A stretch of 64,000 nt of DNA from Meiothermus sp. (GTDB lineage Bacteria > Deinococcota > Deinococci > Deinococcales > Thermaceae), in contig NZ_BPIM01000001.1 of NCBI RefSeq assembly GCF_026004115.1, forward strand, positions 1,964,501-2,028,500, given 5' to 3'. Under the pieces are notes generated by a model. That model was given only the letters and a program-made list of their open reading frames with translations, searched no databases and had not been told where the DNA came from. This document shows, one piece after another, positions 8,044 to 63,276 of the stretch. A program made the translations under genes and the position numbers. Position 1 is the first letter of the stretch. Each line of letters opens with the position of its first letter.

Positions 8044-8344
8044 TACCGGATTCACAAAGACCGCGTACAAAACCAAACGCCAGAGCAGGGTCGGTGCGTA
8101 AACCCCCTGCAAACCTTAGCTTAGTGCGCTCTAGATAGCCAGTGTTGCAAAATAATGCTCGTAGACAAGCGACCAGGCCGGGTATTAGGCCCCCACCTAG
8201 CCTCCCCCGTTGGGGGAGGAAGGAGAGGTTTTACTTTATGCACCGGCCCTGAGACCCCCAGAGGCTATCTTTTTGAATCCTAGAGTACTCCTTTCAGTCG
8301 GGTTAGTTCGTCACTGTTTAGTGACGAACTAACCGAATCTGGTA
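8044..8344 (+). repeat. Family 1 MITE-like element, copy 1, interrupted by a family 2 element
   Basis: The left end TACCGGATTC starts at 8044 and the right end GAATCTGGTA stops at 8344, directly against the TTA that is the glycosyltransferase stop codon. Removing 8086-8251 leaves an element that aligns with the copies at 17899, 20726 and 40440: the interruption falls in the loop of the first hairpin, between AAACCAAA and GACCCCCAGAGG. The second hairpin, GGTTAGTTCGTCACTG/CAGTGACGAACTAACC type, is intact. The flanking triplets are CAA and TTA, so no clean duplication survives. Confidence 0.8.
8086..8251 (+). repeat. Family 2 MITE-like element, copy 1 (166 bp)
   Basis: Imperfect terminal inverted repeats: CAGGGTCGGTGCGTAAA at the left and TTTATGCACCGGCCCTG at the right (16 of 17 positions pair apart from wobble differences). 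An internal hairpin CCTCCCCC-GTT-GGGGGAGG lies at 8201-8219. The same sequence recurs at 26623-26787. It is flanked by AG on both sides and sits inside a family 1 element. Confidence 0.8.
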
Positions 8345-17731: not shown

Positions 17732-17834
17732 GTGCCCTGCGGAAAATGAATGAGGCTACCCGGCCAAATACTGGCCGGACGAGGAAAGTGCTTTTTTAAT
17801 AATCCAGCGGCGGCTGGTGGGCTACTGTGCTCTA

Positions 17835-18113
17835 CCCTCCGCAAAGCGCCAGGCGGTCTCTACGCACTGCCCAGCGGTGGGGGGTGCTGAGGTTGTCATA
17901 CCGGATTCAAAAAGATAGTCATTCAAACAAAAAAATCCAGAGGCTATCTTTTTGAATCCCAGAGCACTCCTTTCAGTCGGGTTAGTTCGTCACTGTTCAG
18001 TGACGAATAACCGGATCTGGTATCAAACACCACAGGGTTAGTCCGGCTTTCTTCAGGGTTTTAGCGGTGTGGCTGCCGATATAGCCCGCCCCTCCCACAA
18101 CCAGAACGTTCAT
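17835..18113 (-). pseudogene. galE: galE remnant split by a family 1 element
   Basis: From ATG 18113 the reverse strand reads MNVLVVGGAGYIGSHTAKTL and then KKAGLT, the NAD-binding start of UDP-glucose 4-epimerase. One base is missing in CTAACCCTGTGG; with it restored the frame reads PVVFD. The family 1 element (17899-18022) then interrupts, and on its other side the frame resumes as DNLSTPHRWAVRRD. Joining the sides through the duplicated triplet gives VVFDNLS, as in GalE. The remaining ~290 codons are gone. The gene would have lain beside the sugar-nucleotide genes that follow. Confidence 0.85.
17899..18022 (+). mobile_element. Family 1 MITE-like element, copy 2 (124 bp), inserted in galE
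   Basis: Ends TACCGGATTC and GGATCTGGTA; flanked by TCA at 17896-17898 and 18023-18025, a 3-bp duplication of the TNA type. It carries two long hairpins: GGATTCAAAAAGATAG/CTATCTTTTTGAATCC and a second around GTCACTGTTCAGTGAC. It has no coding capacity. Confidence 0.9.
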
Positions 18114-18163: not shown

Positions 18164-19108
18164 CTAATGCGAAGCCGCTGCCTGAAGGCTCCTAAAGTAA
18201 GCGATGGTGTGGGTCAGGCCCTCGCGTACCGGCACCCGGGGCTCCCAGCCCAGCAGCGCTTTGGCGCGGCTGATATCGGGGCGGCGCTGGCGGGGGTCAT
18301 CTTGGGGGAGTGGTTTGTGCTCGAGGGGCATCTTGGAACCTACCAGTTCCTGGATGAGCTCGGCCAACTGGAGCATGGTGTATTCCTCGGGGTTGCCCAG
18401 GTTCACCGGCTGATGGTACTCCACGTCCATCAGGCGGCGGATGCCCTCGATCAGGTCGTCTACGTACTGGAAGCTGCGGGTCTGGCTGCCGTCGCCGTAG
18501 ATGGTGAGGGGCTGGCCGCGCAGGGCCTGGCTAATGAAGTTGGTGACCACCCGCCCATCTTCGGCGTCCATGCGGGGCCCATAGGTATTGAAGATCCGAA
18601 TGATGCGGGTCGAGACCCCTTTGGCCTCTTGGTAGGCCACCGTAAGGGTCTCGGCGTAGCGCTTGCCTTCGTCGTAGATGGAGCGCGGCCCCACCGGGTT
18701 CACGTTGCCCCAGTAGGTCTCGGGCTGGGGGTGTACCAGGGGGTCGCCGTAGATCTCGGAGGTGGAGGCCAGGAAAAACTTCGCACCCTTTTCGACAGCC
18801 AGGTCGAGCAGATGGCGGGTGCCTTCGCCGTTGACCAGTAGGGTCTGGATAGGCAGCTTCAGGTAGCGCGGGGGGGAGGCGGGCGAGGCGAAGTGCATCA
18901 CCCAATCCAGGGGCCCTGCTATCTGGAGGGGCTTGGAAGCATCGGCCTGGACAAAGTGAAACCTGGGATAACGAGAGAGCAGCTCGATGTTGCGCGGCTG
19001 GCCGCTGCTGAAATCGTCTATGCCCACCACTTCGTGACCCTCGAGCAGCAGCCGCTCTGAGAGGTGACTCCCCAGAAAACCCGCTGCGCCAGTAATGAGA
19101 ATTCGCAT
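18164..19108 (-). CDS. UDP-glucuronate decarboxylase (UDP-xylose synthase type)
   Basis: Extended short-chain dehydrogenase that converts UDP-glucuronate to UDP-xylose. The 314 residues show the NAD motif GAAGFLGSH, the family-specific [29 protein letters not shown] split over the active-site loop, the catalytic YxxxK in YDEGK and [10 protein letters not shown]. The frame extends to a TTG at 19126, but AGGAAAGGG lies before ATG 19108. The substrate is supplied by the UDP-glucose dehydrogenase gene just upstream, so the two genes make a short UDP-Glc to UDP-GlcA to UDP-Xyl path. Confidence 0.92.
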
Positions 19109-19259
19109 TTTTACCCTTTCCTGCAAAGCCGGATTATGATTTTTTTCTTTGGTTCAACCCCGTGCATGAATCGCATGTCGCAGTTGGGAGGAATTTTCTT
19201 TGTGCTTTTAACTTCGGCTCCCGGCCATTCTGCAAGTGATCTACAAACCCGGCCCACCC

Positions 19260-26622: not shown

Positions 26623-26787
26623 CAGGGTCGGTGCATAAACCCCTGCAAATCTCAGCTAAGTACGCTTTAGACAGCCGGTGTTGCAAAAAAATGCTTGTAG
26701 GCAGGCGAACTAGACGGGTATTAGGCCCCCTCCAAGCCTCCCCCGTTGGGGGAGGAAGGAGCGGTTTTGCTTTATGCACAGGCCCCG
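26623..26787 (+). repeat. Family 2 MITE-like element, copy 2 (165 bp)
   Basis: It begins CAGGGTCGGTGCATAAA and ends TTTATGCACAGGCCCCG, and aligns with 8086-8251 from end to end. The hairpin CCTCCCCC-GTT-GGGGGAGG is identical. It lies in the 350-bp gap between the channel and the SDR gene, which holds nothing else recognisable. Confidence 0.85.
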
Positions 26788-29048: not shown

Positions 29049-29102
29049 TGCCAGATTCGGTTAGTTCGCCGCCATCCTGTGCCGAACTAACCGAATCTGG
29101 TG
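29049..29102 (+). repeat. Family 1 element, 54-bp single-hairpin form
   Basis: TGCCAGATTCGGTTAGTTCG and its reverse complement CGAACTAACCGAATCTGGTG form a 20-bp stem around a 14-nt loop. Only the second hairpin of the long form is present, with both ends. The flanking triplets are TTA and TGA, both TNA but not identical. Confidence 0.8.
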
Positions 29103-30863: not shown

Positions 30864-30952
30864 CTTCCAAGGGGCTTACGCCCTCCGCTACGCGGATAAC
30901 TTCGGCCCTTTTAGTTCGTCACCCTTTGATGCCAAACTAACCGAATCTGGTA
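30864..30952 (+). repeat. Family 1 element, copy truncated at its left side
   Basis: It contains the middle segment CTTCCAAGGGGC...CCGCTACGCGGATAACTTCGGCCC, otherwise seen only in the 164-bp copy at 40440, plus the second hairpin and the right end GAATCTGGTA at 30952. TGA follows. The left hairpin and left end are missing. Confidence 0.75.
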
Positions 30953-40439: not shown

Positions 40440-40603
40440 TACCAGATTCGGTTAGTTCGGCGCCGTATGGCGCCGAACTAACAGGGCCGAAGTTATCCGC
40501 GTAGCGGAGGGCGATACCGCCCCTTGGAAGGGAGTGCTCTAGGATTCAAAAAGATAGCCTCTGGGGGTCTTTGGTTTGGATGATTACCTTTTTGAATCCG
40601 GTA
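40440..40603 (-). mobile_element. Family 1 MITE-like element, long copy (164 bp)
   Basis: Flanked by TGA at 40437-40439 and 40604-40606. Ends TACCAGATTC and GAATCCGGTA. It lies opposite to the copies at 17899 and 20726 and carries a ~45-bp extra middle segment with its own palindromes (CCTTGGAAGGG; CCGCGTAGCGG). It separates livK from the promoter of livHMGF. Confidence 0.9.
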
Positions 40604-48812: not shown

Positions 48813-48820
48813 TTCCATGT

Positions 48821-48866
48821 TCCGATAGTTCGTTACCGAAAAGTAACGAATCAACCGAATTGGGTA
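48821..48866 (+). repeat. Degraded family 1 hairpin
   Basis: GATAGTTCGTTAC-CGAAAA-GTAACGAATCAACCGAATTGGGTA corresponds to the second hairpin and right end of family 1 with several changes. TTA follows, again a TNA triplet. Confidence 0.55.
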
Positions 48867-62210: not shown

Positions 62211-63226
62211 AAAAAATTCGGTTGAGCAAAGAAAGGGGCTTCTAAACTGGATTTGTGAATAACCCAGAGAAGCCCAAAGACAGTGTAGCTTGCCGGAACT
62301 GCGGAAGTGTGAAAGTCGAGTGTGGCGGCTATCGCAAGCGGAAGCTGCGAACCCTGAATGGCATAGAAGAAACCCGACTCAAACGCCTGCGCTGTGCTGG
62401 GTGCAAACGGCAGATAAGGGTGGAATATACCCCAGAATGCCAACGTTATCGCTGGTATAGCCGCCTGGTGCAGGGTTTATTTGCCATCCTTGACAGCTAT
62501 CGGGTTACCGAGGCGGTCAAAGCGGATATCGCTGCCTTGCTGGGTTATCCGATTGTGCTGGCCACCCGACTGGATTGGGCCCAAAGCGGTGGTGACCGGG
62601 GACAGACCTTGCTCAAAGCAGAGAACGCACAGATCAAAGGGCTTATCCGCACGGTTTGTGTGGATGACTGGGTGTATGGACGGGATAGCCGGGGCCAGGG
62701 TTATGGGGTCTGGGAAGCCCAGAGCGGCTGTCCTGTATCGGCTGATCTGGCCGAGGAGCGGGGGTTTGAACGGGTACGGGATTTGCTCAGCGATGGGTTG
62801 CTTGATGATGTGGTTTCCGATGGGGCGCCCGAGATCGCCGAGGCTTTGCACTGGCTGGGGTCTAAAGTGCAACAGGTCAGGTGCTGGTTCCACCTGAGCA
62901 GGGATATCCTGGGCAAGACCCCCCAAGATCAAAGGAATCGGCTGCAGCTGGAACTGCAAGTGCTGTTGGAGATGAAGACCTTGGGGGAGGCGGAAGCCAA
63001 CAACACCGCCGAAGTGGGGAATGGCAGGCTGTGGCGACGGCAAAAACGTAGAAACATCCGGTCTATTCCTAGAGCTAAGGACTGGCTGCAGATTGCCCTT
63101 TACCGTACTCGTCACCGTCCAATACAACATTCCCTCTCTGCTTGGCAACGGCTTTCAAACCAATCCTCGCCAAAATGTTGGTTTTTACCCATCATCACAC
63201 CACTTCGTTACTCAACCGAATTCTTT
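62211..63226 (+). mobile_element. Insertion sequence, about 1 kb
   Basis: Terminal inverted repeats AAAAAATTCGGTTGAG (62211-62226) and CTCAACCGAATTCTTT (63211-63226) match at 15 of 16 positions and enclose a transposase gene. No clear target duplication is visible (flanks CATAT and AGATG). The right end lies 9 bp from a family 1 hairpin. Confidence 0.85.
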
Positions 63227-63232
63227 AGATGA
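62255..63232 (+). CDS. IS transposase with an N-terminal zinc-ribbon
   Basis: The 325 residues begin with CX2C...CX2C (CRNCGSVKVECGGYRKRKL, then CAGCKRQ), a zinc-ribbon typical of several IS families. VCVDDWVYG and VVSDGAPEI fit the first two acidic residues of a DDE/RNase H fold, and QQVRCWFHLSRDI follows the second. The third acidic residue is not obvious, and the stretch after WFHLSRDI is short (LLEMKTLGEAEANNTAEVG), so an internal deletion is possible. The last ~8 codons run through the right inverted repeat. It starts with GTG. I cannot name the family with certainty. Confidence 0.75.
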   Translation: MNNPEKPKDSVACRNCGSVKVECGGYRKRKLRTLNGIEETRLKRLRCAGCKRQIRVEYTPECQRYRWYSRLVQGLFAILDSYRVTEAVKADIAALLGYPIVLATRLDWAQSGGDRGQTLLKAENAQIKGLIRTVCVDDWVYGRDSRGQGYGVWEAQSGCPVSADLAEERGFERVRDLLSDGLLDDVVSDGAPEIAEALHWLGSKVQQVRCWFHLSRDILGKTPQDQRNRLQLELQVLLEMKTLGEAEANNTAEVGNGRLWRRQKRRNIRSIPRAKDWLQIALYRTRHRPIQHSLSAWQRLSNQSSPKCWFLPIITPLRYSTEFFR

Positions 63233-63234
63233 GT

Positions 63235-63276
63235 CTAGTTCGCCGCCATCCGGCGCCGAACTAACCGAATCTGGTA
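63235..63276 (+). repeat. Family 1 single-hairpin copy, left end lost
   Basis: CTAGTTCG and CGAACTAACC flank a GCGCC-type loop, and the right end is GAATCTGGTA followed by TAA. The left end would lie where the insertion sequence now ends. Confidence 0.7.

Follow-up and report, generated by a model that had tools for sequence, protein, structure and literature searches.

Positions 17822 to 18113 of the window (the whole 64,000-nucleotide stretch of Meiothermus sp. contig NZ_BPIM01000001.1 analysed here) carry on their minus strand a galE gene that is interrupted soon after its start, and the locus raises the questions of what interrupted the gene and whether the interruption is what destroyed it. 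When both strands were read directly, the minus strand gave a GalE start (MNVLVVGGAGYIGSHTAKTLKKAGLT), a frame slip, TTTGA at 18023, an element of 124 bp and then DNLSTPHRWAVR. The junctions read TTTGA / TACCAGATCCGG...GAATCCGGTA / TGACAACCTCAGCACC, with the element at 18022-17899, and on its 3′ side lies a second TGA (17898-17896) followed by CAACCTCAGCACC (DNLST). The 5′ remnant of galE (18023-18113, with the ATG starting at 18113) corresponds to nucleotides 1-92 of galE from the relative G005 less one base, at 93.5% identity, and the remnant past the element (17863-17898) corresponds to nucleotides 90-125, at 91.7% identity. An intact minus-strand gene at 18167-19126 encodes an NAD-dependent sugar-nucleotide epimerase/dehydratase (UDP-xylose-synthase-like) and adjoins galE in relatives too.

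The galE gene is intact and uninterrupted at the same locus in six Meiothermus relatives (G003, G004, G005, G006, G011, and G014), and both flanks of the interruption match a single unbroken galE in G005 and G003. An empty site, CTTGACAACC, with a single TGA was aligned in G005, where the gene reads GGTCATAACCCTGTGGTGCTTGACAACCTCAGCACC without the element; the window instead reads GGACTAACCCTGTGGTGTTTGA, the element and TGACAACCTCAGCACC, an excess of exactly 124 + 3 bp, and G004 reads VVFDNLSTGHRWAVR unbroken. The TGA at 18023-18025 (upstream in galE) and the TGA at 17896-17898 (downstream), both on the minus strand, therefore represent the single TGA of G005 in duplicate. A sequence-only reading of this locus had proposed that the element entered galE with a clean 3-bp duplication, that removing it together with one TGA would restore VVFDNLS, and that one base is missing before the insertion; comparison with G005 confirmed all three, the last as GGACTAACC in the window against GGTCATAACC in G005. 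The same reading held that the rest of galE had been deleted, and here it overlooked a 3′ stub of 43 nucleotides with the stop codon (17822-17864, minus strand, G005 nucleotide 933 onward). Alignment against G005 galE showed a jump from nucleotide 125 to nucleotide 933 with CG common to both sides (17863-17864), that is, an internal deletion of about 809 bp with 2-bp microhomology that joins codon 42 to codon ~312. Past this junction, the window matches the remainder of galE, stop codon included, and then the shared 3′ flank. The length of this deletion, 809 bp, is not divisible by three, and each of the two deletions, this one and the 1-bp one, should inactivate galE even with no element present.

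The features of the element are those of a miniature inverted-repeat transposable element (MITE). It is short (below ~500 bp, with a main form of 124-126 bp) and non-coding, stop codons breaking the translation of this copy, and it has terminal inverted repeats, TACCAGATTC at one end and TACCGGATTC at the other. The galE copy matches our covariance model R1 over its full length (1-125) at 138.7 bits, and a second full-length copy in the window, also on the minus strand (L072, 20726-20850), scores 151.5 bits and is flanked by TAA/TAA. Among 38 full-length copies of this genome the ends are nearly constant, and a fixed 3-bp target-site duplication of the form TNA is perfect in 30. In 27 of 35 distinct copies the two flanks match, whereas permuting the right flanks gives an expectation of 9.0 (maximum 19 in 10,000), so the match is not a product of chance. 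The six uninterrupted relatives and the aligned G005 site add insertion polymorphism to these features. From the empty sites in relatives and the TNA duplications at most copies we infer that the element moves, as the sequence-only reading had held.

Copy numbers rest on pattern and model searches, with copies analysed as individual stretches. The arm GATTCAAAAAGATAG, with up to two mismatches, has 165 matches on one strand and 164 on the other, compared with 2 and 1 for its reversed control; each element holds one arm per strand, which suggests about 160 copies in the genome. Lengths cluster into subfamilies near 125, 158, 196, 211, 234, and 272 bp. Within the window, a 164-bp variant at 40440-40603 carries an internal module, AGGGCCGAAGTTATCCGCGTAGCGGAGGGCG...CTTGGAAGG, between TGA/TGA duplications, and short palindromes at 29049-29102, 30889-30952, 48813-48866, and 63223-63276 hold hairpin A plus the ends only and are apparently solo or truncated derivatives. 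A separate repeat family of ~149 nt is present at 8101-8249 and 26637-26785 in copies that are 86% identical, the first of which lies within, and splits, a member of the MITE family (8044-8344).

The element is common in Meiothermus and is also present in Calidithermus and Allomeiothermus. Among the matches listed, with at most 113 places scored per genome, R1 found at least 109 to 113 in each of G000 (the present genome), G002, G008, G010, G013, and G015; other members of the genus gave intermediate numbers, a sister genus gave 26, and G006, G011, and G014 gave 0 to 1. In the other families of the order there were none, apart from two weak matches in G022. Many copies in G008 share one R1 score of 144.8 bits, suggesting a recent burst. 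The element was also found in records of Meiothermus hypogaeus, M. taiwanensis, M. rufus, Calidithermus chliarophilus, and C. roseus; it lies on a plasmid of M. taiwanensis and, as a partial copy, on a plasmid of Allomeiothermus silvanus. A match in Zixiibacteriota is not recognised by R1 and was set aside as chance, as was a miRNA match, the sole result of an Rfam search. Phage records that were searched for the element gave no match.

On sequence evidence, the stretch at 17899-18022 is very probably a non-autonomous MITE copy that a transposase supplied in trans put into galE at a TGA (TNA) target with duplication of 3 bp, in a gene also broken by 1-bp and ~809-bp deletions. IS1031-type insertion sequences of the IS5 family target TNA, and their transposases make a 3-bp staggered cut there. 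By the mechanism we propose, an element with TACCRGATTC ends, two internal hairpins and no coding capacity would have been placed by a trans-acting transposase into the TGA of the galE that follows the UDP-xylose-synthase-like gene. A DDE-type enzyme would have cut TNA with a 3-bp stagger and so left the 3-bp duplication. We infer both the enzyme type and its action in trans, which the anatomy of the element and the empty site support.

The 3-bp TNA duplication is shared with IS1031-type elements; however, the TACCRGATTC ends are unlike the GAGGCTGTCGTAAAAG ends of a DUF4096-type insertion sequence in the same genome, and no IS5-type transposase examined has TACC ends of its own. An autonomous element with these ends was found neither at the IS5-type transposases of this genome (PF01609, PF13340, PF13586, and PF13359), nor at the DUF4096 loci examined in the genus, nor in loci totalling 896 kb from Thermaceae that bear the element. 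Several candidates for a parent were rejected. At L096, an IS5/DUF4096 transposase lies between two TACC ends in a stretch of 1166 bp (1315-2480), but this insertion sequence has GAGGCTGTCGTAAAAG ends and a TGA duplication of its own and sits within a composite formed by two elements. The 380-aa transposase at L083 (864-2206) and that at L137 (about 1100-1904) likewise belong to other insertion sequences nested in or beside an element copy. Since three different insertion sequences are found in this position, copies of the element serve as landing sites for them. A TACCAGATTCACCGTG motif near L090, L130, and L133 was a chance match to the start of an hslV-like coding sequence, and the long pairs at L296, L260, and L259 proved to be two separate copies or an assembly gap. 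As a separate observation, G007 has about 40 DUF4096 (IS5-type) transposase matches, many equal in score, an expansion of an insertion sequence.

The element resembles bacterial MITEs (reviewed in PMC10969869) in its short, non-coding main form of 124-126 bp, its terminal inverted repeats, target-site duplications and high copy number, and its patchy presence across related species. It differs from them in having short imperfect terminal repeats (TACCAGATTC / TACCGGATTC), two long independent internal hairpins, several length subfamilies, and no autonomous parent at the transposase loci examined. An alternative is that the element was not transposed and spread by homologous recombination or as an extragenic palindrome of the REP/BIME type. 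Its strongly palindromic character and the paired changes that reshape hairpin A would fit this, and with REP/BIME sequences it shares many copies and covarying hairpins. Such sequences spread without target-site duplication, however, whereas most copies of this element have a 3-bp TNA duplication; its ends are defined and precise, and a coding sequence holds an exact empty site for it. The single TGA of that empty site refutes the alternative for the galE copy, and overall we regard it as very improbable.

With transposition as the preferred reading, it remains to be asked whether the insertion is what killed galE, and here the fate of the gene in relatives is informative. The neighbouring epimerase/dehydratase gene is present at the locus in ten genomes of the genus, and in six of them galE stands intact beside it (425-450 bits against TIGR01179). 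Of the other four, G000 has the element allele, and the remaining three have lost galE without any element: G009 (L120, 1750-1948) through an independent internal deletion of ~757 bp that left both gene ends and no mobile element, G002 down to the last few bases of the gene, and G013, where the stretch examined next to the epimerase/dehydratase gene yielded no match to galE. Because of these element-free losses, galE at this locus is dispensable and can decay by internal deletion. They fit the reading that galE was already dead, by the internal deletion, the 1-bp deletion or both, when the element arrived, so that the insertion had no phenotypic effect. We give this about an even chance; an intermediate allele, with the deletion and no element or the element and no deletion, was not found, and the position of the element favours neither order. 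The sequence-only reading had proposed instead that the insertion inactivated galE and that decay went on afterwards. A full-length galE offers a larger target, and the part ahead of the insertion retains 93.5% identity to G005 and so is no ancient ruin, but the sequence gives no indication of which event came first, and the losses without an element in three related genomes speak against this order. We rate this order as nearly, though not fully, an even proposition.

The further claim that a sugar-nucleotide gene was lost holds for this locus alone. A second protein above the curated TIGR01179 GalE cut-off (306-321 bits) is present in all 18 genomes of the genus, in G000 at C1:2230270-2231250, where 135 of 321 residues are identical to the G005 GalE. 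This protein is a putative epimerase, and with it in every genome the lesions at this locus need not have cost the cell its epimerase function. This corrects the view that galactose metabolism was lost through the element. As galE has been broken in more than one independent way and another gene of the galE type lies elsewhere, the insertion is real but biologically ordinary.

The hairpins of the element provided the side result of greatest interest. On the minus strand, hairpin A (17980-18012) is a palindrome with a GAAC loop, which in this copy is short of one left-arm base, and hairpin B (GGATTCAAAAAGATAG... / ...CTATCTTTTTGAATCC) spans 17903-17959; a single strand of this copy folds at z = -7.3 relative to shuffles. 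Across 51 copies, compensating double changes were found at 10 of 15 pairs in hairpin A and 3 of 16 in hairpin B, a covariation above all 500 shuffles and all slid registers, where the rows are related and the counts are not probabilities. The four-base loops of hairpin A (alignment A1, columns 11-44) include six reverse-complement pairs among 17 distinct loops, namely GAAC/GTTC, AAAC/GTTT, CTTC/GAAG, ATTC/GAAT, ATCC/GGAT, and ATAC/GTAT, where composition-matched draws average 1.7 and reach six once in 5000. For several pairs, both loops are carried on identical arm sequence. The loops thus look as if the hairpin tip had been inverted or copied across, of which two orientations would be the expected trace. 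Very small inversions at hairpins have been described in other genomes, and this turnover is therefore a lead and not a new principle. A more specific proposal, which we consider rather unlikely, is that the left hairpin of these MITEs, in Meiothermus and relatives, is held in perfect pairing by some process that works on the hairpin once it is extruded, through compensating pairs and loop flip/flop. While the element replicates or transposes, the hairpin would be exposed as a single strand or cruciform, and the enzyme involved may be a TNA-specific transposase from a family not yet described.

The Thermus insertion-sequence survey (PMC6352166) and the prokaryotic MITE review (PMC10969869) were consulted, and the literature searched for Meiothermus MITEs gave no description of this family, which does not prove its absence elsewhere. 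The MITE insertion at this locus is well supported and lies in a galE that is easily lost among related species, a surface-sugar gene repeatedly removed through different lesions. The locus also introduces an apparently undescribed MITE family of Meiothermus, Calidithermus, and Allomeiothermus, for which there are a clean empty site, a preference for TNA targets and signs of recent activity. The hairpin covariation and loop turnover are the part most worth following, as the two-orientation loop may provide a natural record of hairpin inversion in bacteria.
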